A stretch of 44,493 bases of DNA from Myxococcales bacterium (lineage in GTDB: Bacteria > Lernaellota > Lernaellaia > Lernaellales > Lernaellaceae): assembly GCA_012517325.1 (NCBI GenBank), contig JAAYVF010000059.1, forward strand, positions 1 through 44,493, written 5' to 3'. Every line of letters starts with the position of its first letter. The first letter of the stretch is position 1. The notes below the pieces were generated by a model. The model was given only the letters and a program-made list of their open reading frames with translations, made no database searches and had not been told where the DNA came from. This document shows positions 128 through 21,183 of this stretch, piece after piece. A program made the position numbers and the translations under genes.

Positions 128-190
128 AGTCCCGCTCTCTACTCCGCGCGAGAGTCGAAATGACCAAAAATGCAAGGCCAGTAACCCCTT

Positions 191-455
191 GAAAAAATAA
201 GCACTCTCACAACCGTGACGAGTTGGACGAAGTCACGACGATTTAGAGAGGGAGAGAGAAAAAGGGCGTTTTTCGGGGCAAATGTGGGGTTTTCGGGGGT
301 TAGCTCGTCACGCTTGGGAAGCCCTCGCCAAGTCGCCAGTCCAGCCGAACAGCGCGATAAACAAAAGGAAAAACGAAAGGCCGAGTCCCGGGTTTGGGTC
401 GGCCTTTTTTGCTCAGAGAGCGGTTAGGAAAAGGGTCGTGGTGGAGCAAGCGTGA
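191..455 (+). repeat. Dispersed structured non-coding element, copy 1
   Basis: This stretch resembles 25445-25695 in order and in short blocks. The shared blocks include an about 20-base segment near 217-236, a block near 287-300 and the hairpin at 379-404. A segment at 214-219 can pair with 232-237, and the overlapping segment 214-222 can instead pair with 304-312. A terminator-like hairpin follows. The strand is assigned from the poly-T tail. A 70-codon reading frame at 215-427 overlaps it, but the two copies do not conserve a protein, so I treat the element as non-coding. Its function is unknown; a small RNA or a mobile intergenic element are both possible. Confidence 0.5.
379..410 (+). 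terminator. Rho-independent terminator of element copy 1
   Basis: GGCCGA at 379-384 pairs with TCGGCC at 399-404, and an inner CCC/GGG extends the stem. Six T residues follow at 405-410. This is the classic intrinsic terminator layout on the plus strand. No conventional gene lies upstream in this direction, which suggests the preceding element is itself transcribed. Confidence 0.6.
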
Positions 456-664
456 CTGGTATCGAAATGCCGGTGAATATAGCGTAAATGCTATTATAGC
501 CTACCCAGTTGAATATAAACACTATTTGGCCGCATGATGATTTTTTGGACTCTGCATTGCTTGCAATACCGCATGCAAGAACCCCCTCTGGCAGAAGCAG
601 GACACCATGATCAAAGCAAATTTTAGTGGATTATTTCCTTTAGCGGCAAGCGGGCTTCACTCAT
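411..664. other. Non-coding stretch after element copy 1
   Basis: No gene is supported here. Positions 451-473 form a short hairpin motif (stem around a CGAA loop) that recurs at 28191-28213. A 12-bp dyad, ATTGC-TT-GCAAT, lies near 554-565. The stop codon of the cation exporter is at 665, and I see no clear terminator for the long minus-strand operon. Confidence 0.4.
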
Positions 665-1549
665 TTAAGGGCAGCCGGTTCTCGCTCCTTCTTGGCCGCA
701 TAAGTCGTCCAACTCGATCTGAATCGTGGTGTGTCGAATATTGAATTCGGCCGCCAGCAGGCTGTTTACCTTTCGGATCATGGTGTCCGTGGTAGCGGCA
801 TCGCGGTTTATACACACATGGCATGAAAGGAATATCTCGTTCGAGTCTACAGACCAGATGTGCAACCCGTGCATGCCGTTGACTCCTACCAGTCCGAGAA
901 CGGCGGCACGGACGCGTTCAGGATCGATGCGATCCGGCACGGCCTGCATGAAGACGCGGAGGCTCTGTGAGATCACTCCCCAGGTGCTCCAGACCATCAT
1001 CACCACGATCCCGATGCTAATAGCCAGGTCCAGCCAATACCAAGGTTTGAACAGAATTACGACGCCCACAAGAACGACGCCCACGGAGGACATGGTATCG
1101 AAAAGGAGATGCAAGAACGCCGCCTTGAGGTTCAGACTTCGCTCGCGATCCCGGTGAAGAACCAGAATGGAAAAAGCATTTCCGAACAAGCCGACCAAGG
1201 CAACCGGGATGAGAATTCCCGTGTCGATATTCACCGGATGCAGAAAACGGACGATGGCCGCGCGGACAATGACGCCGCCGATGCCCAAAAGCGCCAGCGC
1301 GTTGACCAGTGCCACGAGAATTTCAAAGCGGCGCAGTCCGAAACTGAAGCGCGCGCCTGGTTTCCATTCCGAAACTTTCTCGCCCGCGTACCCCAACAAA
1401 AGCGCCAACACGTCGGAAAGGTTGTGCCCCGCGTCTGAAAGAAGCGCAAGACTGCCGGACAGGACTCCGGCGACATATTCCACGATGGTAATGATGACGT
1501 TGAAGAAGGTGACCAGAAGCAGTCGGCGCTTGCTCAGACCTTTTTTCAT
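665..1549 (-). CDS. Cation diffusion facilitator (CDF) metal exporter
   Basis: A 294-residue inner-membrane protein of the CDF family, which exports Zn(II), Co(II), Cd(II) or Fe(II) in exchange for protons. About six membrane segments are followed by a cytoplasmic C-terminal domain. The metal-site pattern of the family is present: D39, H42 and D46 in the second segment, and H148 and D152 in the fifth. The start at 1549 is chosen because its ATG overlaps the stop of the upstream permease as ATGA; an earlier in-frame start would run far into that gene. It is the last gene of the arsenic operon. The metal specificity cannot be read from sequence. Confidence 0.88.
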   Translation of the reverse strand: MKKGLSKRRLLLVTFFNVIITIVEYVAGVLSGSLALLSDAGHNLSDVLALLLGYAGEKVSEWKPGARFSFGLRRFEILVALVNALALLGIGGVIVRAAIVRFLHPVNIDTGILIPVALVGLFGNAFSILVLHRDRERSLNLKAAFLHLLFDTMSSVGVVLVGVVILFKPWYWLDLAISIGIVVMMVWSTWGVISQSLRVFMQAVPDRIDPERVRAAVLGLVGVNGMHGLHIWSVDSNEIFLSCHVCINRDAATTDTMIRKVNSLLAAEFNIRHTTIQIELDDLCGQEGARTGCP

Positions 1550-2316
1550 TTCAACACCCCCAGCAGCCGGAGGGCGATCTCGCCTGCGAAGAACCACATG
1601 ATGAAGGCGAAGGCGATCTTGACGAATTTCGGACTAGCTTTGACCGTGACATACGAACCGAAGGTGGAGCCGATGACGCAGGCTATCGACGTAATCCCGA
1701 TCAGGCGGTAATCGACGGGTCCGAGGGCAAAATGCCCCGCCGCCCCCACCAGGGAACTCACCGTGACGATCAGAGCGTTGACCCCGGCGCCCATCTGCGC
1801 GGGGTATCTCATATAGAGGATGAGGAACGGGAAAATGATCAGTCCGCCGCCGACGCCGATCAGGCTGGAAAGCACTCCCACTCCGAAGGACATCGCGATG
1901 ACGAGCGCAATGACCCTCGGCGTGAATTGCCGCAACACCTGACCGGCTTTTTCCTTGGCCGAGCGGATCATCAGGATGCCGGCCGCGACGAGAAACACCG
2001 AGAAGATGCCCAGAAGAAGTTCCTTCGGCGCCTGATTCGAAAGCATCGCGCCGAGCAACGAACCGACCACGGTGCCAGGCAGAAAGATCAATGTGAACTT
2101 GTAGTCCACGAGCTTGTTGCGGGCGAAGACGAGGGTCGCCACGAAGGCCGTCACGAGGTTCAGGAAGAGCGCGGTGGAGATGGCGCCGCCGATCTCCAGA
2201 CCGAGCATGACCAGCACGGGCGTATAAAGCGAGCCGCCCCCCTTCCCGAACATGGAGAAGACTCCCGAAATCGCCAGGATGGACAGGAAGGCGACGATGG
2301 TGAATGACGTGCTCAT
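1546..2316 (-). CDS. TauE/SafE-family sulfite or organic-acid exporter
   Basis: A 256-residue polytopic membrane protein with the TauE/SafE layout: two similar halves, each with a glycine-rich first helix (SMFGKGGGSL near residue 21 and SLIGVGGGLI in the second half). Family members move sulfite, sulfoacetate or related anions. A strong GAGAGGGG ribosome-binding site sits just before the ATG at 2316. The stop overlaps the CDF exporter start by 4 bp, so the two are co-translated. Placement in a thiol and arsenic operon suggests sulfur-anion export, but that is inference. Confidence 0.85.
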   Translation of the reverse strand: MSTSFTIVAFLSILAISGVFSMFGKGGGSLYTPVLVMLGLEIGGAISTALFLNLVTAFVATLVFARNKLVDYKFTLIFLPGTVVGSLLGAMLSNQAPKELLLGIFSVFLVAAGILMIRSAKEKAGQVLRQFTPRVIALVIAMSFGVGVLSSLIGVGGGLIIFPFLILYMRYPAQMGAGVNALIVTVSSLVGAAGHFALGPVDYRLIGITSIACVIGSTFGSYVTVKASPKFVKIAFAFIMWFFAGEIALRLLGVLK

Positions 2317-2328
2317 GGTCCCCTCTCT

Positions 2329-2949
2329 TTACTTCCCTTCGGCCGACGCCTTCTCGTAACAAGGGATGCAGACCTTTTTTTCACCCAGCGGGCGGCCGTA
2401 GCCTTCCACCGTCATCTCTCCGCAACGGTCGCAAACGAACCCGGCGAAGGAGTCGTGCTTTTTCGGCGGCTCGTAGTCGAAGACCTCGCCGACGTTCAAA
2501 AGCATTTCGTCCGGCGCGGCCATCACTTTTTGGACCAACGGTTCAACGGTTTCGTCGGGGACCTTCGACGCGGGGATGCCCTTTTCGCGGTACTTCTTGA
2601 AAAAGTCCGTTTGCTTATTGGCGAGCATGGCCTCGGCCTTGGGGGTCACCCGAACGGCCCGTTTGGTCGCCACGTCCACCAGGGTCACGCCCCACTTGCC
2701 GTAGTGCAGCTTTTTGATGTTGCCCTTGCCGAACGTGCAGCCGGTGATCATCTGCACGCCGTCCGCGAAGCACGTCGCGCAATGGTCCTCGCCGAGTTCG
2801 ATGAGGGCGAGAAGTTGGCCGTCGGTCGCCCGCCCGACGCCGAGTTTGTTCATCGCCGCCGCACCGACACGCAGCCCCATCGGCATGGCCGGGCACTTGT
2901 GGCCGTGAAACTTCTGTCCCATCGCCAGGAATTCTTTCGGATCGATCAT
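2329..2949 (-). CDS. FmdE-like protein with C-terminal zinc ribbon
   Basis: A 206-residue cytoplasmic protein of the FmdE family, named after subunit E of the tungsten formylmethanofuran dehydrogenase. The family signature FHGHKCP (H15, H17, C19) is followed by a Cys-containing DHCATCFADGVQ block and TGCTFGKGN, and then a C-terminal CxxC...CxxC zinc ribbon. Stand-alone FmdE proteins are common in anaerobes and are suspected of metal or thiol chemistry without a proven reaction. The ribosome-binding site AAAGGAG is well placed. This is the first gene after the FNR-type palindrome at 3065-3080, so it may head a separately controlled sub-operon with the two exporters. Confidence 0.85.
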   Translation of the reverse strand: MIDPKEFLAMGQKFHGHKCPAMPMGLRVGAAAMNKLGVGRATDGQLLALIELGEDHCATCFADGVQMITGCTFGKGNIKKLHYGKWGVTLVDVATKRAVRVTPKAEAMLANKQTDFFKKYREKGIPASKVPDETVEPLVQKVMAAPDEMLLNVGEVFDYEPPKKHDSFAGFVCDRCGEMTVEGYGRPLGEKKVCIPCYEKASAEGK

Positions 2950-3000
2950 GATGCGTCTCCTTTCGACGTGTTGCCGGCGGGATCAGGGCCGCCGATATTC

Positions 3001-3021
3001 AGCCTCCTGCATCAGGAGGCT
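3001..3021 (-). other. Perfect 9-bp stem-loop in the FmdE leader
   Basis: AGCCTCCTG at 3001-3009 and CAGGAGGCT at 3013-3021 form a perfect hairpin with a 3-base loop. No T-run follows on the minus strand, so it is unlikely to be a simple terminator. The arms contain AGGAGG and CCTCCT, a Shine-Dalgarno-like core and its complement, about 50-70 bases before the FmdE start. It could be an RNA stability or processing element. Confidence 0.45.
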
Positions 3022-3064
3022 CTCTTCTCACGCGAAAAAAATAGCAACAGGGATTGCGGCGGGC

Positions 3065-3080
3065 ATTGACGGCGGTCAAT
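3065..3080. promoter_or_regulatory. FNR-type operator palindrome ATTGAC-N4-GTCAAT
   Basis: Positions 3065-3070 and 3075-3080 form a perfect inverted repeat with a 4-bp spacer, the geometry of FNR/DNR/HcpR sites (TTGA half-sites). It lies directly downstream of the gene for an FNR-type regulator whose recognition helix has the residues that read TTGA. It is about 116 bp upstream of the FmdE start. The pairing of regulator and site is inference from this match. Confidence 0.6.
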
Positions 3081-3091
3081 CGGTGCTTGAT

Positions 3092-3841
3092 TTAGAGAAG
3101 AATCGCACTGGCGGTTTGCCTGAGCGCATCAGGATCCAGAACCTGGAATCGGTTCGCGCCGAGCCGATGCAGGATGTTTTTCCGGACAAGATCCGTGATG
3201 TTTCTGGAAAAGCTCTCAGGAGTAATGCCGATCAGGGCGGCAAATTCACGGGAAGATTGCGGAAGGATGATCACCGTGGTTCCCATCGAAAAATCAGAGT
3301 CGGGCAACAAGGAGGCAAGTGCGGCGGCGACTTTCGGCAGCGTGCCCTTGCTCGACATTCGTTCAATTTGATCGAACGCTCCCCGCAGTCGTCTGGCGAG
3401 ATGTTGCAAGAGAACGACCGCTACATCAGGATCTTTTTTCATGACCCCTAGCAATAAGGACCTGGGCATGACTTGCGCCTCTGAGTCCTCCAAAGCCTGG
3501 GCGTATGCGGGATAAGGCCCGCCATCCAGAAAGGGCATGAAACCGAAAACCGTTCCTGGCCCAAAGATGTACAAGGTCACCGTTTTGCCGTCGGGCAATA
3601 AGCGATAGATTTTCACAGAACCCGATTCGAGGGCAACCAGCATCCCGTCGGTTTCGCCCTCTCTCCAAAGAAGCTGCCCCGCCTTGAAATGCTTGCGGGA
3701 AAGATACGGCTCCAATAGCTTCTTCGTTTCATTGGCGACATCTCCGCCAAAATGATGGTGCAATGTCTCTGAATTTTCCCTGCTCAATTCATCCTCGCCA
3801 ACATGGTCGGATGGAAAATATTCTATTGTGAATTGGTCCAT
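3092..3841 (-). CDS. Crp/Fnr-family transcriptional regulator without cysteines
   Basis: A 249-residue regulator: a cyclic-nucleotide-binding-like beta barrel (about residues 45-140), a long dimerisation helix (about 138-165) and a C-terminal winged helix. The recognition helix reads E209-S-F-S212-R213, matching the FNR E-x-x-S-R pattern that contacts TTGA half-sites and not the CRP pattern. The protein has no cysteine, so it cannot carry the FNR oxygen-sensing 4Fe-4S cluster. A haem/NO-type sensor (DNR or HcpR-like) is more likely. It starts 26 bp after arsM in the same direction and probably controls the palindrome at 3065-3080. No strong ribosome-binding site precedes the chosen ATG. Confidence 0.85.
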   Translation of the reverse strand: MDQFTIEYFPSDHVGEDELSRENSETLHHHFGGDVANETKKLLEPYLSRKHFKAGQLLWREGETDGMLVALESGSVKIYRLLPDGKTVTLYIFGPGTVFGFMPFLDGGPYPAYAQALEDSEAQVMPRSLLLGVMKKDPDVAVVLLQHLARRLRGAFDQIERMSSKGTLPKVAAALASLLPDSDFSMGTTVIILPQSSREFAALIGITPESFSRNITDLVRKNILHRLGANRFQVLDPDALRQTASAILL

Positions 3842-3867
3842 CCATAGGGTAATTCCCCAATATTACA

Positions 3868-4659
3868 TCATGGTTTAGTTGCCTGGATGATCGCCGAGGC
3901 CACGTATTCTTCCGCACCGGAACCAGGGAACCAATCTGCAATTATTGAGCGGCTTTCGGGCTTGACTTCGATCCGCACGTTGGCAAACCCAACCTCTTTG
4001 AGAATGCGTATTACGTCTTCCACGGTCGCTGCACCAGCAACGCAACCGCACAGCAACGCGGCGTCCTTTATAAGGTGTTCAGGCAGCCGCTTGGTCGCGA
4101 GGACATCTGAAATAGCGAGTCGTCCACCGGGTTTCAGGACGCGATACGCTTCCGCAAAGACCGCTGGTTTGTTCGGCGAGAGATTAATGACGCAATTCGA
4201 AAGAATTACATCCACGGAATTGTCGGCCACGGGTAGATGCTCGATCTCGCCTAGGCGAAACTCAACATTAGTGACCCCGCTTTCTTGGGCGTTCTCCCGC
4301 GCCTTGGCCAACATTTCGGGAGTCATGTCCACGCCAATCACACACCCGTTCGGTGCGACCGCCCGCGCCGCGATAAAGCAATCAAAACCGGCACCAGACC
4401 CTAGGTCCAGCACTACCTCACCGGGGGTAAGTTCGGCGACAGCCTGCGGGTTGCCGCAACCCAGGCCGAGGTTCGCTCCATCCGGTACGGCGTCTAGCTC
4501 GTTATTGCCATAACCCAGCTTGTGGGCTTGGTCCTTGGGTGAAGTGACCGGCTCTTCACAACAGCCTGTCGAAGGACCGCAGCAGCAACTGCTCTGAGAC
4601 GAAACAATGCGACCATAGTTCTCGCGAACGGTCTGCCTGATCTTCTCATCGTCTTTCAT
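3868..4659 (-). CDS. arsM: Arsenite S-adenosylmethionine methyltransferase
   Basis: A 263-residue cytoplasmic enzyme that methylates As(III) with S-adenosylmethionine to mono-, di- and trimethyl arsenicals. The class I methyltransferase motif LDLGSGAGFD is at 84-93. The arsenite-binding cysteines of the family are all visible: C68 in LGCGNP, C156 in SNCVINL and C204/C206 in CGCVAG. The N-terminus also carries a Cys-rich patch (C25-C27 and C33-C34) that may load metalloid. The ribosome-binding site AAGGTG lies 5 bases before the ATG. It follows acr3 by 15 bp. Confidence 0.93.
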   Translation of the reverse strand: MKDDEKIRQTVRENYGRIVSSQSSCCCGPSTGCCEEPVTSPKDQAHKLGYGNNELDAVPDGANLGLGCGNPQAVAELTPGEVVLDLGSGAGFDCFIAARAVAPNGCVIGVDMTPEMLAKARENAQESGVTNVEFRLGEIEHLPVADNSVDVILSNCVINLSPNKPAVFAEAYRVLKPGGRLAISDVLATKRLPEHLIKDAALLCGCVAGAATVEDVIRILKEVGFANVRIEVKPESRSIIADWFPGSGAEEYVASAIIQATKP

Positions 4660-4674
4660 ATTGCACCTTTTCTT

Positions 4675-5733
4675 CTATGCGTTTGTGGTTGAATTGAAGT
4701 ATTTTCGCTTGAACCAGAACGCCACGCTCACCAGGCCGATCATCACCGGCACCTCCACAAGCGGGCCGATGACCGCCGCGAACGCCGCGCCGTGATGAAT
4801 GCCGAAGGTTGCGATGGCGACAGCGATGGCCAGTTCGAAGTTGTTCGAAGCTGCCGTGAACGACAGCGTGGCCGACCGCCCATAATCCGCGCCGACTTTC
4901 TTGCTCATGAAGAACGACACCACGAACATGACGACGAAGTAGACCAGCAGCGGGATCGCGATCCTTACCACATCGAGCGGAAGCTGCACGATGTATTCGC
5001 CTTTGAGGGAGAACATCACAATGATGGTGAATAGCAAGGCGATCAGCGTAATGGGGCTGATCTTCGGGATAAACTTTTTGTGGTACCAATCCTTATCCCT
5101 GTAACTGATCAACGTGAAGCGCGTGATGACCCCGGCGAGGAACGGGATGCCAAGGTAAATGAAAACGCTCTTGGCGATTTCACCGATGGTAATGCGGACG
5201 ACCGCACCTTCGATGCCGAGCCAAGCGGGCAAAACCGTGATGAACCCGTAGGCGTACACCGAAAAGAAGAGCACCTGGAAGACGGAATTGAAGGCCACCA
5301 GGCCCGCCGCGTACTCCGGGTCACCCTTCGCGAGGTCGTTCCAGACGATGACCATGGCGATGCACCGGGCAAGGCCGATCAGGATGAGGCCGACCATGTA
5401 CTCCGGCTTGTCGCGCAGAAACAGCACCGCCAGCGCGAACATCAGCACCGGCCCCACGATCCAGTTCTGCACCAACGACAGGGCGAGCACCTTCCAGTCG
5501 CGGAACACGCGGCCCATCTCCTCGTAGCGCACTTTGGCGAGCGGCGGGTACATCATCAGGATCAGCCCGATGGCGATGGGGATGTTCGTCGTGCCGACGG
5601 AAAACCGGTTCCAGAAACCCGCGACCGCGGGCCAGAGGTAGCCGGAGCCCACCCCGACGACCATCGCCGCGAAGATCCAGAGGGTCAGGTAGCGGTCGAG
5701 AAACGACAATTTCCTGGTGACGGATTCGGCCAT
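4675..5733 (-). CDS. acr3: Arsenite efflux transporter of the Acr3 family
   Basis: A 352-residue, ten-helix inner-membrane permease that expels As(III). The conserved Acr3 cysteine is C124 in [15 protein letters not shown], and the conserved LVEVPVMI helix is near the C-terminus. The start is taken as the ATG at 5733; a GTG one codon upstream is possible. AGGA lies 9 bases before the ATG. It is separated from arsC by only 11 bp. Acr3 is unrelated in sequence to ArsB, and no arsB or arsA is in the window. Confidence 0.94.
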
Positions 5734-5744
5734 CACGATTTTTC

Positions 5745-6158
5745 CTACTGCTGGATCAGGTACGCTTCCACTTGTTCGCGTATTTCGTCTCGTACGCGCC
5801 GGAAAACCGCAAGTTTTTCTTCCTCGGTTCCTTCCGCTTTGTCAGGATCATCGAAACCCAGATGTGCCCGCCGGACGCCGCCGAAAAACAACGGACAAGT
5901 CTCATTGGCGTGGTCGCAGAGCGTGATGACGAAATCGAAAGCTTGGTCGGCGAATTCGTCCATGTGCTTGCTGCGAGCGCTGGGGTGTTGGATACCTATC
6001 TCGGTCAAAGCGCGCAACGCCAGTGGATGAGGCGTCTTCGGATTCGTCCCGGCCGAGAATGCCTCGAAGCGATCACCCAGATCATGATTGACCAGCGCTT
6101 CGGCGAGCTGCGACCGGCAGCGATTCGAAGTGCATAGAAAAAGCACGCGCTTTTTCAT
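5745..6158 (-). CDS. arsC: Arsenate reductase, thioredoxin-coupled (LMW phosphatase fold)
   Basis: A 137-residue enzyme that reduces As(V) to As(III) for export by Acr3. The low-molecular-weight phosphatase loop C9-T-S-N-R-C-R15 (CX5R) is present, and C81 and C88 match the Cys82/Cys89 relay of the Staphylococcus aureus type, in which thioredoxin regenerates the enzyme. The loop has NRC where many relatives have NSC. The operon supplies several thioredoxin-like proteins that could act as reductants. The start follows a GAGAGG site. Confidence 0.93.
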
Positions 6159-6163
6159 GTTTG

Positions 6164-6487
6164 TTACCTCTCTTGCACCGCGGTAATTTTCCCCTCGGAA
6201 ATCATCGCCGTCTTAACAAAGTCCCACACATGATGGTGCGCATAAAATCTTAGCAAGTCTTTGAGGTCTGGAAAACTTATCGCTCGGCCTCGGCAAAGGT
6301 TCGCGCAGGTATTGCAACCGACGACGCATTCCATCGGTCGGGCCACGACAGCCTTCTGCTGATCAGCCTGCCAATCGTAAACCTTTTTCCCGCAGTTCAT
6401 GCACATTCCGCAACCGACGCATTTATCCGCGTCGAGAGTGGGAGACCACTGAACCTGCTCTCTGGGAACTCCTGCGAACCAAGGCAT
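6164..6487 (-). CDS. Small two-cluster ferredoxin-like protein
   Basis: A 107-residue soluble protein with two cysteine groups: C23, C26, C29 and C32, then C54, C58, C61 and C65. This is a modified 2[4Fe-4S] ferredoxin pattern. The usual proline after the last cysteine of each group is missing (Gly and Arg instead), and the second group has a CxxxCxxCxxxC spacing. A strong AGGAGG site precedes the ATG, and arsC starts 5 bp after the stop. An electron-donor role for the operon's redox enzymes is inference. Such a ferredoxin is not part of canonical ars operons. Confidence 0.75.
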   Translation of the reverse strand: MPWFAGVPREQVQWSPTLDADKCVGCGMCMNCGKKVYDWQADQQKAVVARPMECVVGCNTCANLCRGRAISFPDLKDLLRFYAHHHVWDFVKTAMISEGKITAVQER

Positions 6488-6502
6488 GGTTTTCCTCCTG
6501 GA

Positions 6503-6916
6503 TTAAGGCATTGACGATAAAAGAGATTCGACCTGATCTTCTTTGAAAAATCCTTCGACTTTCGCCGCCACCCGCCCGTTTTGATCGAGGCCAAGCAGCA
6601 CGGGCATGAAACCGAAGCTGGTGAGTCTTTCGTATCGGTCCAGTTCGGCGGGATTCTTCGCTACGTCCACCCGTTCAGGACGAATCACCCCTTGTTTTCG
6701 CGACAAAACACTTTCCAATACCGATTCGGCTTCAAGGTTTCGGTCTCGTTCGCATTGGCAGGCTTCGGAGTTGAATAGGTAGACTGCTCGCGACACAGGC
6801 CCTATTAGTTCGGATGATGGATCGGGTAGTGGCGCCGCCGCTTTTCGCTCACAGGCGATGAAAAAGAACCCAACCGTGATGATGGTCAGTAGGCGCGACG
6901 TTCTACGTGATCTCAT
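6503..6916 (-). CDS. Putative lipoprotein with a thioredoxin-like CxC motif
   Basis: A 137-residue exported protein. The N-terminus is basic, then hydrophobic, ending in the lipobox-like IAC at 20-22, so acylation at C22 is likely. The mature part has C53-Q-C55 at the end of a predicted first beta strand and a PVLLGLDQNG stretch typical of a thioredoxin-fold cis-Pro region. The ATG at 6916 follows AAGGA by 9 bases; an upstream TTG at 6922 is less likely. It overlaps the end of the upstream thioredoxin gene slightly. It resembles the exported CxC protein at 8094-8495. Confidence 0.65.
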   Translation of the reverse strand: MRSRRTSRLLTIITVGFFFIACERKAAAPLPDPSSELIGPVSRAVYLFNSEACQCERDRNLEAESVLESVLSRKQGVIRPERVDVAKNPAELDRYERLTSFGFMPVLLGLDQNGRVAAKVEGFFKEDQVESLLSSMP

Positions 6917-6918
6917 AA

Positions 6919-7398
6919 TCAATCCTTCACCAAGCCTAGCTCTCGCAACTTGGCCAGCATGTCGGCTTTGGAAGCGTAACCGGCATGCCGATACACTTCC
7001 TGCCCTGTTCCATCTAAATAGACCTGCGTGGGCATCATTTGGATTTTGTGCTCGGTCGCCAGTGCGGTTTCTCTTTCAAGATCGTTGAAACGCACAAGCA
7101 CCTTCCCGGCCAATTCCGTATGCAACGCCTCCAGGTCGGGCGCCATTGCTTTGCACGGTTTGCACCACCCGCGGCCGAAGTCGAGCATCATCGGAAGTCC
7201 CTTGGCGCGATACTCGGCGATTTCAGGCGCAGCCGGTTGGTATTCGGCTTTCTTTGGCGCTGGCGCGGGAGTCGCGGCGGGAGCAGCGGCCACGGTCGTA
7301 TCGTCGCCGGGCTTGCAGCCGCACGGCGTCGATAAGGTGAACGCATAGAGGGCGACCAGAGCAACCAACCCAAGGAACGGAAGAACCTTTCGTGTCAT
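6919..7398 (-). CDS. Exported thioredoxin-family protein
   Basis: A 159-residue protein with an N-terminal membrane or signal segment (about 5-24), a CGC pair (C26/C28), an Ala/Pro-rich linker (37-60) and a thioredoxin domain. The active site is W78-C79-K-P-C82, and the cis-proline loop is MMPTQVY near 120. It probably faces the periplasm and receives electrons from the CcdA-like protein encoded immediately upstream, whose stop overlaps its start by 4 bp. Confidence 0.85.
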   Translation of the reverse strand: MTRKVLPFLGLVALVALYAFTLSTPCGCKPGDDTTVAAAPAATPAPAPKKAEYQPAAPEIAEYRAKGLPMMLDFGRGWCKPCKAMAPDLEALHTELAGKVLVRFNDLERETALATEHKIQMMPTQVYLDGTGQEVYRHAGYASKADMLAKLRELGLVKD

Positions 7399-8093
7399 AG
7401 CAATCCCCTATAAGCGAAGTATGCGCCGACCGCGATGATCAGCATGCCCGCGACGCGGCGAAGAACATTCGTCGTCACGGTCAGTTTTTTGTTCTCGATG
7501 ATCGACTTGGCCGCGCCCACGCTGGTCCCGGCAATCACGATCAACGTGCAATGACCCATGGCGTAGACAAGCAGCAGCAAGCCGCCGTAAACGACCGACG
7601 AGCCGCTACCCGCGATGTACGCCAGGAGCACCACCAGGATCGGCGCGGCGCAGGGAGCGGATACTATCCCGAAGAGAAGACCGAGCAGGAAGGCACCGAA
7701 TCCACCCTTAACCTTCGGATTGATATTGAGCTGCGGGATCGGAATGTTGACGAGTCCCATAAGGTGAATGCCCATGACCAGGCACACCCCGGCGACGATC
7801 CAATTCCAGACGGATGAAACGGTGCCGAACAGCCTTCCCACCACGGCAGCGACTATGCCCATGCCGGTAAACATCGCCGAAAGGCCAAGGATGAAAAACA
7901 GGGAGAATACGAAGGCGCTTTTGGCCGATTTGATGTTCTGGCCTCCGGACACGAAGCCGATCGTCAGCGGGATCATCGCCAGCACGCAGGGATTGCTGGC
8001 CGTCAGAAGGCCACCGAGGAAGACGACAACCAACGCGAGCCAAGGGTTGGTGTGGATGTAGGCTTCCGCGTTGTTCATCAACGATTCAAGCAT
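7395..8093 (-). CDS. CcdA/DsbD-type transmembrane thiol electron carrier
   Basis: A 232-residue membrane protein with about six helices that moves electrons from cytoplasmic thioredoxin to periplasmic thiol proteins. The two redox cysteines sit in the family positions: C36 in SNPCVLAMIP and C148 in SAPCAAPILV. It is tightly coupled to an exported thioredoxin (downstream) and an exported CxC protein (upstream), which are natural acceptors. I call it CcdA-like because it lacks the fused periplasmic domains of DsbD. Confidence 0.88.
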   Translation of the reverse strand: MLESLMNNAEAYIHTNPWLALVVVFLGGLLTASNPCVLAMIPLTIGFVSGGQNIKSAKSAFVFSLFFILGLSAMFTGMGIVAAVVGRLFGTVSSVWNWIVAGVCLVMGIHLMGLVNIPIPQLNINPKVKGGFGAFLLGLLFGIVSAPCAAPILVVLLAYIAGSGSSVVYGGLLLLVYAMGHCTLIVIAGTSVGAAKSIIENKKLTVTTNVLRRVAGMLIIAVGAYFAYRGLL

Positions 8094-8495
8094 CTAGTTG
8101 ACTCCCGTAATCAGACCGGCGTCGAACAACTTTTTAAGAACGTCATCGCGGCGCATCCGGCCTTGGATCTTGAGCAATTCAACCTTGTTCGCGCCAACGG
8201 CAAGAAAGGCCGGAAAGGTGAAGATTTGATATTGGCGGATGAGAGGATCGACGGTCTCCGGGCGAATGCCGTAATCTAGTTCCTGATATTCAACACCGGC
8301 GGCCAGGTGGTTCTGTACGAATCCCGCAATCGGCTTGGCGAAACTGCAGGCTTCTTGCTGGCACGGGCACGCGCCGGAATGAATCAGGAAATAGAGTGAC
8401 ACCTTCGGTTTCTCACCCGCATCGGAAAGAAGCGGCGACAAAAAGAAGGAGCACGACAGCAGTACTACCGCGATGACCAATGCTTGCTTCTTCAT
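8094..8495 (-). CDS. Exported thioredoxin-like protein with a CPC motif
   Basis: A 133-residue protein with a signal peptide (about 1-26). The mature domain begins with a strand followed by C43-P-C45 and C50, and ends with a TFPAFLAVG stretch like the cis-Pro loop of thioredoxins. A CxC pair in place of CxxC is unusual and recurs in the lipoprotein at 6503-6916. The start overlaps the stop of the upstream mini-thioredoxin as ATGA. It abuts the CcdA-like gene, so it is a likely periplasmic client. Confidence 0.65.
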   Translation of the reverse strand: MKKQALVIAVVLLSCSFFLSPLLSDAGEKPKVSLYFLIHSGACPCQQEACSFAKPIAGFVQNHLAAGVEYQELDYGIRPETVDPLIRQYQIFTFPAFLAVGANKVELLKIQGRMRRDDVLKKLFDAGLITGVN

Positions 8496-8731
8496 TTCGC
8501 ACCCTGGATGAGTTGTTCGATCTTTTCAACCGACGGCAGCGGCTTGCCTTGATGGACGACTTTTTCATCCACGACGAGCCCCGGCGTCAGCGCCACATAT
8601 TTGTGGATGCTGTCCATGTCGGTGAGATATTCGATTTCCGCCTGCAAACCCAGCTTTTGCAGGGCTTCCTTCGTGCGTTCAAGCATGGTCTTGCAGTTGA
8701 CGCAGCCCGGACCCAACACCTTGATGTTCAT
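8492..8731 (-). CDS. Small thioredoxin-like protein (redox-active disulfide protein 2 type)
   Basis: A 79-residue cytoplasmic mini-thioredoxin with the motif GPGC10-VNC13 and a LTPGLVVDEKV stretch. Proteins of this family (TM0996-like) often sit beside ArsP-like permeases and arsR genes. It is a possible reductant for ArsC or donor to CcdA. The start follows AAGGGGAACGCC. It is paralogous to the next gene upstream. Confidence 0.85.
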   Translation of the reverse strand: MNIKVLGPGCVNCKTMLERTKEALQKLGLQAEIEYLTDMDSIHKYVALTPGLVVDEKVVHQGKPLPSVEKIEQLIQGAK

Positions 8732-8746
8732 GGCGTTCCCCTTTCG

Positions 8747-8977
8747 TTACTTGATGATCTTCTCCAGATCCTTGTCGCTAGGCACGCGACCTTTAATCTC
8801 AACCTTGCCGTCGATGACGACAGCGGGCGAAGTCATTAGCCCGTATGCCATCATCGCGTCGATGGATTCCACCTTGACGACTTCGTGCGGCAGACCGCGC
8901 GACTGGACAAACTTGCTGACGACTTCGAATGTCCGTTTGCATTTCGCACATCCGGGACCAAGAACCTCGATTTTCAT
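8747..8977 (-). CDS. Small thioredoxin-like protein, second copy
   Basis: A 76-residue mini-thioredoxin with GPGC10-AKC13 and the cis-Pro region TSPAVVIDGKV. It begins 12 bp after the permease gene with a strong GGAGG site and ends 15 bp before its paralogue. The tandem pair differs mainly in charge, which suggests different partners. Function is inferred from family and context. Confidence 0.87.
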   Translation of the reverse strand: MKIEVLGPGCAKCKRTFEVVSKFVQSRGLPHEVVKVESIDAMMAYGLMTSPAVVIDGKVEIKGRVPSDKDLEKIIK

Positions 8978-8989
8978 GTTTTAGCCTCC

Positions 8990-10159
8990 TTAACCGACCA
9001 GTGCGCCGTACCCCATGCCCGCCACCGTGGACATGACGACGACCAGCGCGAAATAGACAATGGACTTTTTCGGACCGAGAACGCCGTAGATCACGATCAT
9101 GCTCGGCAACGACAACGCCGGACCCGCCAGAAGCAGCGACAGCGCCGGTCCTTGCCCCATGCCTGATCCGATCAATCCCTGAAGGATCGGCACCTCCGTC
9201 AGCGTGGCGAAGTACATGAGCGCCCCGGCCATCGACGCGAACAGGTTTGCCCAGAGGGAATTGCCGCCGACAAGCGTTTCGATATAGCGGTTCGGGATGA
9301 CACCCGTGTCCGTGCCCGCGCGCCCCAGCAAGAAACCCGCGACAAGGACGCCGCCCAGCAGAAGCGGCATTATCTGCTTCGTGAAATCCCAGGTTGAGTT
9401 GACCCACTCGCCCAACTCATCTTTCTGGAACCATTTCCACAGCATGACACCAAGGACTACCAAAAGGACAATGGTGATCGGCCAATGGACTCGGTAAACC
9501 GCATCCCAGAAACCGACCGGCTGCGACGATTTCCCCCACGCCGCGAAGATCAGGATGAAGACCATGACGGCCATGTAGGAAACAGTTTTCCAAAGCGGAC
9601 GCGCTTCGTCGGGCACGGCGGCGAACATGTTGTTGGCTGCCTTCTCTTGCTCTTCTTTCCGAAAGATCGCCGCCATGATCAGACCGATCACCACCGAGAA
9701 AATCACCGCGCCGACGGCCCGCGCCAATCCGAGTTTCCAACCCAAAATGCGGGCCGTAAGGATGATCGCCAGCACGTTGATCGCCGGGCCGGAATAAAGG
9801 AAGGCGATGGCCGGACCCAGTCCCGCGCCGCGCTTGTGAATGCCCGTGAAAAGCGGCAGCACTGTGCATGAGCAGACCGCGAGGATCGCCCCGGAAACCG
9901 AGGCGACCGAATAGGCCAGCACTTTCTTCGCGTTCGCTCCGAAGTACTTCATCACCGATGCCTGGGAAACGAAAACGCTGATCGCGCCCGCGATGAAGAA
10001 CGCGGGGACCAGGCAGAACAGCACGTGCTTCTGCGCGTAGTCCTGCAGCATCCAGAAGGCTTCCAGAATCGCGCCGCGCACGCGATCATTGGACAGCGGG
10101 ATGAGGTACGCGCCGAGAAACGCCCCGATAAGGACGGCGAGCTTGGTTCTTTCTTTCAT
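8990..10159 (-). CDS. ArsP-like permease (DUF318/UPF0718 family)
   Basis: A 389-residue polytopic membrane protein with two related halves separated by a charged loop near 170-190. The conserved helix AVCSCTVLPLF carries C96 and C98, and the companion block LYSGPAINVL follows. The second half repeats the pattern with TLTEVPILQGL and GPALSLPS. Some members (ArsP) export trivalent organoarsenicals, which would complement ArsM; others have no known substrate. It is the first structural gene after arsR, 67 bp downstream, with an AAGGAT site. Confidence 0.85.
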   Translation of the reverse strand: MKERTKLAVLIGAFLGAYLIPLSNDRVRGAILEAFWMLQDYAQKHVLFCLVPAFFIAGAISVFVSQASVMKYFGANAKKVLAYSVASVSGAILAVCSCTVLPLFTGIHKRGAGLGPAIAFLYSGPAINVLAIILTARILGWKLGLARAVGAVIFSVVIGLIMAAIFRKEEQEKAANNMFAAVPDEARPLWKTVSYMAVMVFILIFAAWGKSSQPVGFWDAVYRVHWPITIVLLVVLGVMLWKWFQKDELGEWVNSTWDFTKQIMPLLLGGVLVAGFLLGRAGTDTGVIPNRYIETLVGGNSLWANLFASMAGALMYFATLTEVPILQGLIGSGMGQGPALSLLLAGPALSLPSMIVIYGVLGPKKSIVYFALVVVMSTVAGMGYGALVG

Positions 10160-10226
10160 GAGTTTATCCTTAGCTTTTTGCCCAAATGGCTAAGACGATG
10201 GCGAAGAAAAAAGGCAGGTTTCCGGA

Positions 10227-10538
10227 TCATGAGAGCCTCAATGCCTCGCGCCGCTGCTCGACAACCTGAGTGACGCAGCTGAAAAACCCGGCGATGCAGG
10301 TCACTTCCAGCCGGTAGAACACCATGCTGCCCTCCTTGCGGTCCTCCGAAACGATCCCGGCTTCTTTGAGTTGGCTGATGTGGCGGCTGACCGTGGCGTA
10401 CTCGTGGCCGACCAGCGCCACCAACTCGGCGACGTTCTTCGGCCCCGCCTGGAGTGCGTCCACGATTTTCAGGCGGCTCGGATGACCGAGCGCCTTGAAG
10501 ACCCGCGCCCGCGTCTCGTAGGTTCTGTCCTTGTCCAT
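10227..10538 (-). CDS. arsR: ArsR/SmtB-family metalloregulator
   Basis: A 103-residue winged-helix repressor. The family core FKALGHPSRLKIVDAL is near residues 14-29, and the recognition helix region is YATVSRHISQLKEAGIV. A cysteine pair near the C-terminus (TCIAGFFSC) could bind arsenite. The usual ArsR CVC motif in helix 3 is missing, so the metal site must be atypical. The start at 10538 is chosen because AGGAGG lies 9 bases upstream; the 8-codon upstream extension has no such site. It heads the long minus-strand operon and probably represses its promoter. Confidence 0.9.
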   Translation of the reverse strand: MDKDRTYETRARVFKALGHPSRLKIVDALQAGPKNVAELVALVGHEYATVSRHISQLKEAGIVSEDRKEGSMVFYRLEVTCIAGFFSCVTQVVEQRREALRLS

Positions 10539-10605
10539 TCGATCGGACCTCCTCGGCGACATTTGCCGTTCCGAGCCGAAGCCGGAACGACTGCGATCAT
10601 CACCG

Positions 10606-10634
10606 TCATTATGCTAAATGACTAAATATGTCAA
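10606..10634 (-). promoter_or_regulatory. Sigma-70-type promoter of the ars operon with a candidate ArsR operator
   Basis: On the minus strand a perfect TTGACA (-35, 10629-10634) is followed after 17 bp by TAATGA (-10, 10606-10611). The spacer contains ATTTAG twice in direct repeat, an AT-rich arrangement suited to ArsR binding between the promoter boxes. Transcription would start about 60 bp upstream of arsR. Operator assignment is inference from position. Confidence 0.7.
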
Positions 10635-10720
10635 GGAGGACCGACCGCGCCTCTTCGTTGCTTTCCGGAGTGATCTGGACGTCAGTTTTCGATTGATTCG
10701 CGCTCTCCCGGCCGGCTTTT

Positions 10721-10911
10721 TTATTTATTTAAGGATAATCCCTGGCGAATGAGCGCCGATCCGATGCCTCGGTTCTGCAACTCCGGCAACACGGAAACCG
10801 GGCCGAGCGCATACCAACTTTCGCTGCCGTCGGCGATGGTCACGGGCGAAAAGGCCACGTGGCCGACCACCTTTCCTTCTTCTTCGGCGACCAGCGAAAT
10901 CGTCAGCGCCC
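10721..10911 (-). pseudogene. C-terminal fragment of a GNAT acetyltransferase
   Basis: Read on the minus strand to a stop at 10721-10723, about 62 codons give a clear GNAT C-terminus: SLVAEEEGKVVGHVAFSPV, then LGPVSVLPELQNRGIGSALI, the acetyl-CoA pyrophosphate-binding motif. Nothing resembling the N-terminal half is found upstream, where similarity stops near 10911. It lies between the ars promoter and the sigma-54 activator gene. It is probably a remnant left when the two neighbouring clusters were joined. Confidence 0.75.
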
Positions 10912-10970
10912 CGATTCATGGAAAGGATAGTCGACGCGACCGGACTTCGAGTCGGCAAACTTCCTCCTGG

Positions 10971-10985
10971 ATTGCATATTTGCAA
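10971..10985. promoter_or_regulatory. Activator binding dyad, site 1 (TTGCA-N4-TGCAA)
   Basis: TTGCA and TGCAA form a perfect dyad with a 4-bp spacer at 10972-10985. The flanking bases (TCCTGGATTGCATA) are identical to those of site 3 at 12391-12403. It overlaps the -35 box of the activator gene's own promoter, which suggests autoregulation. Confidence 0.6.
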
Positions 10986-11008
10986 CCATCCCCTGGTCGC
11001 GTTACAAT
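10980..11008 (+). promoter_or_regulatory. Promoter of the sigma-54 activator gene
   Basis: TTGCAA (-35, 10980-10985) and TACAAT (-10, 11003-11008) are separated by exactly 17 bp. The expected transcription start falls at or next to the ATG at 11015, so the mRNA may be leaderless or nearly so; no Shine-Dalgarno sequence is visible. Confidence 0.5.
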
Positions 11009-11014
11009 GTGGTC

Positions 11015-12364
11015 ATGAAAAAGGATTTCTGGGAGCTGATTCTCAATTCCGTCGCCGACGGAGTATTCACGGTTAACGATGAATGGCGAATCACATCCTG
11101 GAACCATGCCGCGGAGGGCATTACCGGATTTTCCCGGGAGGAGGCGATCGGAAAACGTTGCCATGACGTGTTTCGCGCCAATGTATGCCAGGAGGGTTGC
11201 GTCCTACGGCGCACCCTGAAAACCGGTGAAAACATGGTGAACCTGCCAATCAACATTTTAACGAAAGATGGTTTGGAGAAACCAATCAGCATATCCACGG
11301 CGGTTTTGCGCAACAAAGGAAACGACGTGGTGGGCGGCGTGGAGACCTTTCGAGATCTTAGTGAACTGGAGAATCTTCGGCGCAGATTGCGTCAGGAATA
11401 TTCCTTTCAGGACATCATCAGCAAAAACCACCGCATTCAGGAGTTTTTTCGGATCCTTCCCGATATCGCCGGGTCGGGTAGCACCGTTTTGATCCAGGGG
11501 CCGAGCGGCTCGGGTAAGGAACTGCTGGCTCGCGCCATCCACCACCTGAGCGGGCGAAAGGGCAAACCGTTCGTGGCGATCAATTGCGGCGCCCTCCCCG
11601 ACACGTTACTGGAGTCGGAGTTGTTCGGCTATAAAGCGGGCGCTTTCACCGACGCGAAACGGGACAAGCCGGGACGATTCGCTTTGGCGAAAGGCGGTTC
11701 ACTTTTTCTGGACGAGATCGGCGACATCTCGGCCGCCTTGCAAATCAAGCTACTCCGGGTGCTCCAGGAAAAAACATTTGAGCCGCTCGGGAGCGGTAAA
11801 TCCGAGCGCGCCGACGTTCGCATCATCGCCGCGACCAACCGGGACTTACGTGAGGAAATGGCGCGCGGTCGGTTCCGGGAAGACCTTTATTACCGGCTCA
11901 ACGTGTTGCGGATCGATTTACCCCCGTTAAAGGACAGAAAAGAGGACATCCCGTTGCTCGTCGATCATTTCATCGCTCGCTTCAACTCCGAAAAAGGCCG
12001 CGATATCGTCGGCATGACACAACGAGCGTTAGCAGCGCTCATGGCGTATGATTTCCCCGGCAACATCCGGGAACTGGGAAACGCCATCGAGCGAGCCTTC
12101 ATCCTGAGCAAGAAAAAGTTGATCGACGTGGATTGTTTGCCGCCTGAAATTACCGGCGGTTCCGTGTTGTCGACGGATGCGCTGCAGGAAAGCAACCCGC
12201 TTAAAGTGGCCGAAGCCGAAGTCATTCGCCAGGCTCTGCACCGTTTCGAAGGGCATCGAGGCAAGACGGCCAAGGCCCTCGGAATGCACAAGACCACCTT
12301 GTTCCGCAAGATGAAACAATTGGGAATCGTCTATCCCAATCCGGTGCCGCCACTCCAACGATAA
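11015..12364 (+). CDS. Sigma-54-dependent activator with PAS domain
   Basis: A 449-residue enhancer-binding protein: PAS domain (about 5-115), AAA+ domain (about 135-370) and Fis-type HTH (about 400-445). Walker A is GPSGSGKE at 162-169 and Walker B is LFLDEIGD. The sigma-54-contact loop is GAFTDA at about 209-214; the usual glycine before the last alanine is replaced by Asp. The PAS domain has C49, C58 and C62, a spacing that could bind a metal or cluster or act as a redox switch. The ATG at 11015 is preferred over an in-frame GTG at 11009. It is followed by its presumed binding sites and target promoter. Confidence 0.9.
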   Translation: MKKDFWELILNSVADGVFTVNDEWRITSWNHAAEGITGFSREEAIGKRCHDVFRANVCQEGCVLRRTLKTGENMVNLPINILTKDGLEKPISISTAVLRNKGNDVVGGVETFRDLSELENLRRRLRQEYSFQDIISKNHRIQEFFRILPDIAGSGSTVLIQGPSGSGKELLARAIHHLSGRKGKPFVAINCGALPDTLLESELFGYKAGAFTDAKRDKPGRFALAKGGSLFLDEIGDISAALQIKLLRVLQEKTFEPLGSGKSERADVRIIAATNRDLREEMARGRFREDLYYRLNVLRIDLPPLKDRKEDIPLLVDHFIARFNSEKGRDIVGMTQRALAALMAYDFPGNIRELGNAIERAFILSKKKLIDVDCLPPEITGGSVLSTDALQESNPLKVAEAEVIRQALHRFEGHRGKTAKALGMHKTTLFRKMKQLGIVYPNPVPPLQR

Positions 12365-12410
12365 TTGCATTTTCGCAATCGTTCGTGCGTCCTGGATTGC
12401 ATAAATGCAT
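12364..12410. promoter_or_regulatory. Two upstream activator sites (sites 2 and 3)
   Basis: Site 2 (12364-12379) is ATTGC-N6-GCAAT. Site 3 (12397-12410) is TTGCA-TAAA-TGCAT with the same flank as site 1. Their centres are 32 bp apart, about three helical turns, and lie roughly 85-120 bp upstream of the -24/-12 promoter. This is the standard enhancer layout for a sigma-54 activator. Confidence 0.65.
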
Positions 12411-12486
12411 CCTTCCAATCCGGATTGAAAAACCCCTCGCCATCCCAACCGCTTGATTAATCAGCTTTTCCTTGCGCCTCGGCCGG

Positions 12487-12503
12487 TTGGCATTGCTCGT
12501 GCT
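12487..12503 (+). promoter_or_regulatory. Sigma-54 (-24/-12) promoter of the cofactor-assembly cluster
   Basis: TTGGCA and GTGCT place the invariant GG (12489-12490) and GC (12501-12502) exactly 12 bp apart, as required for RpoN. Transcription is expected near 12514, just before the NifX-like gene, giving a short leader. It is the only such promoter I found in this cluster. Confidence 0.7.
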
Positions 12504-12526
12504 TTACTTGGTTGCGGGTGAACACG

Positions 12527-12949
12527 ATGCGAATTGCGATTCCGACATACGGCGAATATATTTCGCCCCGTTTCGACTGCGCCGGAACCTTGATGCTGAT
12601 CGATTCCGACGAAGGAGAAACGGTTTCACCTATCGCGCACAATCTTTCCGAGATAGCCGACGGAGTTCGCCCCGCGTTGTTGGCTCAAATGAACGTCACG
12701 ATTTTGCTCTGTGGGGGGGTTCGACGTTGCGACTTGCTTGCCTTGGAAGGATTGGGAATCAAAGTCGTAGGCGGATTGATGGGCGCCTGGCGTTCGATTC
12801 TTGACGAATACCTCGACGGGCGACTCGACCCTCAAGCGATCGGCGGTCACGGCAAGACCTGTGGCCGGCCGGGCGGACCAGGCTGGCGCGGTTGTCGGAA
12901 TCGGCATCGTAGCGGTGAAAACAACCCAGGGCGGAAAAAGGAGAAATGA
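12527..12949 (+). CDS. NifX/NafY-like dinitrogenase iron-molybdenum cofactor family protein
   Basis: A 140-residue small protein of the DIM family. MRIAIPTYGEYISPRFD opens the ribonuclease-H-like fold, and ILLCGGVRRCDLLALEGLGI forms its core. Members bind or carry Fe-S or FeMo-type cofactors in nitrogen fixers, but most, including those in anaerobes without nitrogenase, have no known cargo. The C-terminal tail is Gly/Arg-rich and contains two cysteines. The start at 12527 lies just after the predicted transcription start and is preferred over an ATG at 12512, which would precede it. Confidence 0.8.
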   Translation: MRIAIPTYGEYISPRFDCAGTLMLIDSDEGETVSPIAHNLSEIADGVRPALLAQMNVTILLCGGVRRCDLLALEGLGIKVVGGLMGAWRSILDEYLDGRLDPQAIGGHGKTCGRPGGPGWRGCRNRHRSGENNPGRKKEK

Positions 12950-12950
12950 A

Positions 12951-13310
12951 ATGCCTCGTTTTGACGGAACAGGACCGATGGGCCGGGGCTCAAGAACCGG
13001 CGGCGGATTCGGCTTCTGTGGTTCGAGACCGGAAATGATCTACGACGGCGGCGACCCTATTTACCGTGGGGCCGGCCAAGGCTTGCCACCCCGGGGAGGC
13101 GGCAGAGGTCGTTGTTTTGGCGGTGGGCATGGCGGAAGATTTTCTGGGCATGGCGGTTTCGGACGTCAGGGTGCGTTGGCCCGGGGGTTCGCGCCGCTTG
13201 CCCCGGGACAAGAAGCAGCGCGGCTTCGAGACCAAGCCGCGCAACTCGAGCAGGAGATGGCGACCGTCAAGGAACGTCTCGAACGGATCGAAACCGAAGC
13301 CGACAAGTGA
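12951..13310 (+). CDS. DUF5320-like glycine-rich protein
   Basis: A 119-residue protein beginning MPRFDGTGPMGRGSRTGG, the hallmark start of DUF5320 proteins, with a Gly/Arg-rich middle and two cysteines (FGFCGS and GRCFGG). A C-terminal coiled coil (about 85-118) follows. Homologues accompany NifX-like and MinD-ferredoxin genes in anaerobes; their function is unknown. AAGGAG lies 7 bases before the ATG at 12951, and the gene begins one base after the preceding stop. Confidence 0.8.
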   Translation: MPRFDGTGPMGRGSRTGGGFGFCGSRPEMIYDGGDPIYRGAGQGLPPRGGGRGRCFGGGHGGRFSGHGGFGRQGALARGFAPLAPGQEAARLRDQAAQLEQEMATVKERLERIETEADK

Positions 13311-13363
13311 AATCGGGGGCTAGCGGGCAAAACCTGGAAAGCCCACGACCATGAGGTGAAATC

Positions 13364-13591
13364 ATGCCCAGAAAAGACGGTACGGGCCCCTGGAACAAGG
13401 GTTCCGGCCAAAGCGGCGGAGCGGGACGCGGACAAGGCGGCAACCAGGTCAAAGGGCGAGGCATGGGCGCCGGCACGGGCGGATCGTGCGTCTGTCCGAA
13501 CTGTGGTGCGACAGCTCCTCATCAAAGAGGAGTCCCCTGCTTCACGATCAAATGTCCGAACTGCGGATCGGCGATGACAAGGCAGCAATGA
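13364..13591 (+). CDS. Small zinc-ribbon protein related to DUF5320
   Basis: A 75-residue protein. The first 40 residues are Gly-rich and open with MPRKDGTGPWNKGSG, similar to the preceding gene. The C-terminal half has two CPNCG knuckles separated by about 20 residues, a rubredoxin-like or zinc-ribbon metal site. GAGGTG precedes the ATG by about 6 bases. Its stop overlaps the start of the next gene. Confidence 0.75.
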   Translation: MPRKDGTGPWNKGSGQSGGAGRGQGGNQVKGRGMGAGTGGSCVCPNCGATAPHQRGVPCFTIKCPNCGSAMTRQQ

Positions 13592-14142
13592 ACGTTAACC
13601 AGCAAGACAAATCCGTCCGGGAAGAAATCTCCTTTCGAGTGATCGGGATCATTCGAAGCGAACACACCGACGAAACCCATACGCCCATTCAACCCGTGTT
13701 CGCTAAGGGGGCGCCCGGGAAGGCAATCATTGATCCGCTTTTCGAAGACGGACTGCAAGACCTGGAAGGGTTTTCCCACATTTTTCTCTACTACTATTTT
13801 CACCAAGCGCCACCGCCGCAGTTACGGGTCAAACCCTACCTCGACAATGTTCGCCGGGGTGTTTTCGCGACGCGCTCTCCCCGGCGTCCCAATCCGCTCG
13901 GGATGAGCCTGGTTCGCCTCGTCAGACGCGAGCGTTCAGTGCTCTTTCTCGAGGACGTGGACATTCTAGACGGTACTCCGCTGCTCGACATCAAACCGTT
14001 TATACCGCGGTTCGACGCGCTGGCGAACGCCACGGGAGGATGGAGCACCGCGGTGGATGAGCGAACCGCGCAAATTGAAGGCCGCCGGGGATACGGCGAA
14101 AGCGACCCCGCCGACGGCAATCGCCACGGAGAACGCGGATGA
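13588..14142 (+). CDS. TrmO/TsaA-type S-adenosylmethionine-dependent methyltransferase
   Basis: A 184-residue protein of the TsaA (YaeB/VirR) family. Escherichia coli TrmO methylates the t6A base at position 37 of tRNA. Family blocks are present: IGIIRSEH, GLQDLEGFSHIFLYYYFH, GVFATRSPRRPNPLGMSLV and LDGTPLLDIKPFIPRFD. The start at 13588 overlaps the previous stop as ATGA; an upstream extension would overlap the zinc-ribbon gene out of frame. TsaA proteins recur in NifX/MinD-ferredoxin clusters, so a cofactor role in place of tRNA is possible. Confidence 0.85.
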   Translation: MNVNQQDKSVREEISFRVIGIIRSEHTDETHTPIQPVFAKGAPGKAIIDPLFEDGLQDLEGFSHIFLYYYFHQAPPPQLRVKPYLDNVRRGVFATRSPRRPNPLGMSLVRLVRRERSVLFLEDVDILDGTPLLDIKPFIPRFDALANATGGWSTAVDERTAQIEGRRGYGESDPADGNRHGERG

Positions 14143-14993: not shown

Positions 14994-15553
14994 TGACCCA
15001 TGATTGGAAGCACCTTTATCAAAAGAGCCAAGAGCCAGCCGCGGCCTGCTCCGAGGCGGACGGCCCCGATTCGCTCGCCTATTCGCCGCGGGTGTTGGAT
15101 CATTTCCTCAACCCGCGCAATGTCGGCCGGGTCGAGCACTGGGATGGCCTGGGTTGTTTTGGCGATCCGTCTTGTGGCGATTCGTTGGAAATGACCCTGC
15201 GGCTGGAAGGCGACCGGATCGTCGAAATCGGCTTTCTGGTTTACGGCTGCGCGGGCGTCATCGCCACCAGCAGCATGGTGACGGAATTGGCGAAGGGCCG
15301 GACGCTCGCCGAGGCCGCCTGCCTCACGGATGAAGAGGTAATCCACGCGCTGGACGGATTGCCGGAAGCCAAACAGCATTGTTCCCTTTTGGGCATCCAG
15401 GCGCTGCGGTTGGCCATCATCGACACGATGGTCATGCGCCAATGCCTCCAGGAAGGGTTGGTGCAAAGCGCGCAAGAATATCGCGCCAAGCGACAAGAGG
15501 GACGGTTGCAATACGACCCGAATCTGTTGTTGAAGGACGACCTAATCGAATGA
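14993..15553 (+). CDS. IscU/NifU-like Fe-S cluster scaffold protein
   Basis: A 186-residue protein with an IscU-type domain (about 30-150). The three cluster-ligand cysteines of IscU are conserved: C61 in SCGDSLE with the adjacent Asp, C86 in YGCAGVIATSS and C130 in KQHCSLLG. A short N-terminal extension with one cysteine and a C-terminal tail are added. Lying between two MinD-ferredoxin genes, with 1-4 bp overlaps on both sides, it probably supplies or accepts clusters from them. There is no cysteine desulfurase gene nearby. Confidence 0.88.
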   Translation: MTHDWKHLYQKSQEPAAACSEADGPDSLAYSPRVLDHFLNPRNVGRVEHWDGLGCFGDPSCGDSLEMTLRLEGDRIVEIGFLVYGCAGVIATSSMVTELAKGRTLAEAACLTDEEVIHALDGLPEAKQHCSLLGIQALRLAIIDTMVMRQCLQEGLVQSAQEYRAKRQEGRLQYDPNLLLKDDLIE

Positions 15554-17971: not shown

Positions 17972-18000
17972 ACCACTTTTTTATCCAGGAGGCTGACAAC

Positions 18001-21182: not shown

Positions 21183-21183
21183 T

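Follow-up and report, generated by a model that had tools for sequence, protein, structure and literature searches.

A probable 300-bp attachment module behind ssrA and tRNA-Asn genes and its association with a group of large serine recombinases

Introduction

Large serine recombinases (LSRs) classically use simple sites of approximately 50 bp, and the use of serine integrases as genetic tools builds on the view of their sites as short and self-sufficient. The complex attP of the lambda type is a site of about 240 bp, in which several repeated sites at fixed spacing are used by the integrase and its partners. Two described groups of integrative elements are closest to the locus studied here. 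The ssrA-specific islands of Dehalococcoides are reported to be arranged in tandem, to be bounded by repeats of the ssrA 3' end and to carry varied cargo (McMurdie 2011, PMC3146451). The Acidithiobacillus phage AcaML1 has been reported to be integrated in ssrA with 10-bp repeats and is described as inducible (PMC3826726).

Here, we analyse a contig of a bacterium deposited as Myxococcales (JAAYVF010000059.1, positions 1 to 44,493; the whole stretch of 44,493 nucleotides is referred to as the window). A preliminary description of this DNA had pointed to two copies of a candidate structured RNA with mutually exclusive pairings. We propose that the two copies belong to a probable DNA attachment module of integrative elements.

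Results

Two copies of a three-segment repeat

The two copies in the window, W1 and W2, are 71% identical across approximately 250 bp; their features are listed in Table 1. As stated in the preliminary description, segment A (GTGACGAG) can pair in both copies either with segment B (GTCAC) or with the more distant segment C (CTCGTCAC), and the flanking pair is C-G in W1 and T-A in W2, with all three segments changed in step. Both points were confirmed at the coordinates read. The terminator-like hairpin is likewise present in both copies; this proposed transcript end sits at the position of the ssrA or tRNA terminator of relatives. Searches with Rfam at gathering and loose thresholds gave no match at either copy, and ARAGORN recognized nothing at the copies and no tmRNA in the window. 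The start of the contig (positions 1-125) contains both occurrences of a direct repeat with a length of about 45 bp (AACATCACTCTATCAGG...GTCAGTATG).

Table 1. Positions in the window of the two modules, their parts, the putative island and the orphan partner gene
Feature	Position	Strand	Remarks
Inner T-arm-like core of W1, CATTTCGACTCTCGC	148..162	(-)	~59 bp from segment A, same as in homologues
Attachment module copy W1 (probable)	191..446	(-), modelled in ssrA orientation	71% identity to W2; 87% to the G002 copy adjoining intact ssrA
Segment A of W1, GTGACGAG	215..222		
Segment B of W1, GTCAC	232..236		12 bp from A
GAGAG/CTCTC box pair of W1	245..259		also in homologues, tRNA-Asn type included
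Segment C of W1, CTCGTCAC	304..311		75 bp from B (GAC to GAC)
Terminator-like hairpin of W1	376..410		T-runs on both sides; directly behind ssrA in relatives
Truncated ssrA-like 3' end at W1, CTCCACCAC	438..446	(-)	putative island boundary; homology to ssrA-adjacent copies stops here
Putative island between the two modules	447..25400		arsenic/metal genes ACR3, ArsR, CDF and others; bounds deduced from module and ssrA ends
Orphan small HTH (ParB-like) gene of recombinase operon	24190..24609	(+)	PHROG 14161 'recombinase', E=1.6e-39
Inner T-arm core of W2, GAGTTCGACTCCCAC	25401..25415	(-)	
Attachment module copy W2 (probable)	25447..25697	(-)	84% identity to the G006c copy beside intact ssrA
Segment A of W2, GTGACGAG	25467..25474		
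Segment B of W2, GTCAC	25484..25488		
GAGAG/CTCTC box pair of W2	25496..25508		
Segment C of W2, CTCGTCAC	25555..25562		
Terminator-like hairpin of W2	25627..25659		
Truncated ssrA 3' end at W2, CCCGCCGCCTCCACCA	25690..25705	(-)	window without tmRNA

Homologues abut the 3' end of ssrA

A DNA search found homologues only in the small phylum of the window (eleven copies in seven genomes); the module is present in each of the six related genomes of this phylum that were covered. Every one of the phylum's copies abuts the 3' end of ssrA, the tmRNA gene, in intact or truncated form, and an alignment that included the flanks showed that the homology ends at the 3' (CCA) end of the tmRNA. An intact ssrA adjoins the module in G001, G002, G004, G005 (where the copy was read directly behind the tmRNA gene) and G006c. 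An ssrA-like gene is reduced to its last part at the two window copies, on contig 6 of G003, at G006a and G006b, and on contig C127, whose copy was recognized beside an ssrA-end fragment of the same genome. On the far side of most copies, a second T-arm-like core (GTTCGACTCC or a variant) follows at a distance of 297-303 bp from the first. An ssrA end on one side and a second T-arm core on the other correspond to the layout of an attachment site.

When the contigs of all GTDB genomes were scanned with a pattern, matches occurred in the same clade only, and the same pattern had no match in viral contigs. With a looser pattern, three module contigs were found, all of which were already known via their LSR, plus contig L130. 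The latter was taken as a chance match; its sequence is without the module and has no tRNA or tmRNA nearby.

A search of the window's genome with the tmRNA family gave sub-threshold hits only, two of which are tRNAs. This genome has no ssrA found in intact form although SmpB is present, which reflects either an assembly gap or a loss. Contig C127 of the same genome (G000) contains at 14053-14113 (L009 1501-1561) an ssrA-like remnant of 61 nt with a 9-bp acceptor-like stem, upstream of which lies a promoter-like TTGACG-17-GATAAT. The variable base of the T-loop is often the same in the inner and the outer core (TTCAACTC in G002, TTCGATTC in L042), with G005 and L046 as exceptions. In different genomes, a single unrelated gene begins shortly behind the inner core (L016 from 1629, L034 from 2211 and L031 from 7424 on); the region behind the inner core is possibly a slot for cargo.

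The adjoining operon encodes a large serine recombinase

The genes adjoining the module code for an LSR, a DUF2924 protein and a small HTH protein, which has a weak ParB/RepB match. The LSR of the relatives, located near the attachment end, comprises Resolvase, Recombinase and Zn-ribbon domains. It matches the models of CcrA, CcrB, CcrC and XisF (CcrB, E=2e-51), far below their curated cut-offs. Within the phylum, all six LSR genes with more than 60% identity share a contig with a module copy; five are within approximately 2.5 kb of it and the one on C127 is about 10 kb away. LSRs of the phylum with about 35% identity lie elsewhere and do not share a contig with a module. The orientation of the operon relative to the module varies between groups: it is directed towards the module in G002, G004, G006c, L046, L064 and AcaML1, and at some viral loci the module is located upstream of the operon.

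In the window, only the partner gene remains of this operon. It is located near W2, and the gene that follows the LSR in G002 is of the same family. Fragments of ssrA ends are found at 438-446 and 25690-25705. The window putatively contains two modules that bound an arsenic/metal island of approximately 25 kb, from which the recombinase gene has been lost. The far ends of the elements were also sought in G004, G006 and the viral records, where a second ssrA end was not found. Open reading frames at 24643-25359 and 26078-28105 of the window resemble lipoproteins, carry extended runs of Asp close to the N-terminus and occur in relatives, too.

Segments covary at rigid distances

The covariation test on further copies that had been suggested in the preliminary description was run with 14 sequences. 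In the A/B inverted repeat, 87% of the cells are paired, compared to 71% in shuffles, and the covariation score is 0.396 versus 0.144; none of 500 shuffles reached the score or the pairing fraction. The earlier claim of a selected repeated element that is not due to chance is borne out. A C-like segment with the same core is found at equal distance in 14 of 14 copies, and its match is significant against shuffles in most, not all, single copies. The A/B covariation together with the invariably placed C-like segment indicates that the three-way relation is real. The A/B covariation alone is compatible with RNA or DNA.

Distances were counted where measurable, as some copies are cut short. In the 14 ssrA-type modules, the spacer between A and B is 12 bp and C is 74-76 bp from B. 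The inner core lies 57-59 bp from A, and C lies 128-131 bp from the ssrA end. Two copies deviate: in L042, the latter distance is 108 bp, which is two helical turns (21 bp) shorter, and G006b contains an insertion. Despite the fixed spacing, the linkers between the segments are only 43-71% identical. A spacing that is rigid to 1-3 bp across highly diverged copies is more in keeping with DNA sites than with RNA linkers.

Free folding of W1 is unexceptional (z = 0.38) and that of W2 moderate (z = -2.49). Across the copies, most z-scores lie in the range from -2 to +1 for either strand, with good folding in L042 and L046. On the ssrA-sense strand, most departures from pairing in W1 and G002, two copies that are not independent, are G-T, and the match between A and C extends to 14/14 in L042.

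A related module with a different motif behind tRNA-Asn

Viral contigs with related LSRs sit at ssrA or at tRNA-Asn, and the same module can be read behind the RNA gene. In the tRNA-Asn modules, GGAC/GTGAC is replaced by GTTAAC. Counted from the end of the tRNA, motifs of this type are located near +34, +224 and +242; a few copies show slight displacements or lack a motif. GTTAAC is also the anticodon hexamer of tRNA-Asn (at -41); the GTGAC-type modules have no exact match to ssrA (GGACG). The LSRs found at tRNA-Asn form one clade of the LSR tree (100/100). The change of the motif accompanies the change of the target, but as a single event on this tree. The preliminary description had tied its RNA reading to the pairings being kept in additional copies: the A/B pairing covaries in the ssrA type, whereas several tRNA-Asn homologues are without it.

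Discussion

The locus most probably contains a DNA attachment module of approximately 300 bp that belongs to integrative elements, i.e. islands and prophages, whose target is the ssrA 3' end or tRNA-Asn, and that forms a complex attachment region of an LSR. The position of the module, its association with a recombinase, the repeats, their geometry and the different motif in the tRNA-Asn clade were observed; the identity of the binding protein and a role of the module in recombination are inferences from them. According to this proposal, an LSR resembling CcrB and XisF, which is encoded together with a DUF2924 protein and a small ParB-like HTH protein, would insert the element. With the element, the host RNA gene would receive a new 3' end and a new terminator in place of its own, and the module would come next. 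Segments C and B in the same orientation, the inverted segment A, the inner core and the CTCTC boxes would serve as repeated recognition sites with fixed spacing, where the recombinase and/or the HTH partner may assemble and thereby control integration or excision. The segments would change in step because one protein must recognize all of them.

The structured RNA of the preliminary description, be it a switch or a small RNA, would pair A alternatively with B or C and could originate from either strand of the module. It accounts for the strong A/B covariation, the long A/C match of L042, the terminator-like hairpin at one end, the good folding of L042 and L046 and the G-T departures in the two related copies W1 and G002. 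However, spacing is constant to 1-3 bp although the linkers have diverged, and the module lies in an attachment context in all cases. Rigid spacing, mostly ordinary folding on both strands, the loss of A/B pairing in several tRNA-Asn copies and a terminator that is that of ssrA or the tRNA favour DNA sites over RNA, and Rfam provided no match. With the recombinase context added, the interpretation as an RNA is not supported, and we consider it unlikely. A role of DNA outside the recombination complex would be that of operators or of a partition-like site, at which the ParB-like HTH protein regulates the recombinase operon. The weak ParB/RepB match of this protein, the palindromic nature of A-B and the upstream position of the module at some viral loci agree with such a role. 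Yet the operon faces the module in the six cases listed above, so that the module is not the promoter region there, and an operator does not need a constant distance to the ssrA end; an operator or partition-like function is therefore quite improbable.

Truncated ssrA ends and several copies per genome would also be expected if the copies were functionless, passive duplications of the region downstream of ssrA that arose from tandem insertions. Rigid geometry and covariation in diverged copies at both ssrA and tRNA-Asn speak against this explanation, which we regard as extremely improbable. In its plain form, the view of the A-B palindrome as the attP that was used was rejected, as the palindrome is intact after insertion. 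An integron cassette with attC was considered for the cassette-like layout; attC is served by the tyrosine integrase IntI, whereas the recombinase associated with the module is of the serine type.

For an attachment module of an LSR, a length of 300 bp is unusual, because the classical sites of these enzymes are simple and comprise about 50 bp. A more far-reaching reading, which we put forward tentatively and with slightly more doubt than belief, is that an LSR family acts on a complex, lambda-like attachment region: a scaffold of approximately 300 bp with phased repeats for the recombinase and a ParB-like partner, in which the repeats were swapped when the target changed between ssrA and tRNA-Asn. 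If true, a widespread natural subgroup of LSRs with a conserved, helically phased 300-bp scaffold and a dedicated partner would represent a different design, and natural examples of a target change within a recombinase family would be at hand. Furthermore, the module would make it easier to define the bounds of ssrA and tRNA-Asn islands in metagenomic data. The literature searched, which left out most subscription papers, contained no description of the module.

Compared to known systems, the region resembles the lambda attP in its repeated sites at fixed spacing, but lambda uses a tyrosine integrase and the module is associated with a serine recombinase. The LSR matches the models of the SCC cassette recombinases CcrA, CcrB and CcrC and of XisF, yet far below the cut-offs, and the targets differ. 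The Dehalococcoides islands likewise have a serine recombinase, a CcrB homologue, beside the ssrA side; they differ in a six-gene integration module with a ParBc protein and in a 20-bp direct repeat, and the excerpted text of the source mentions neither a repeat module of about 300 bp nor an 'inverted repeat' (PMC3146451). AcaML1 has an LSR that is 46% identical and is followed by a 'small subunit' gene, and the noncoding stretch behind its ssrA has the CTCTC boxes and the TAAGTnCTTG block in common with the module. It differs in that this stretch is without an annotated feature and in that the GTCC/GGAC pair occurs in swapped order.
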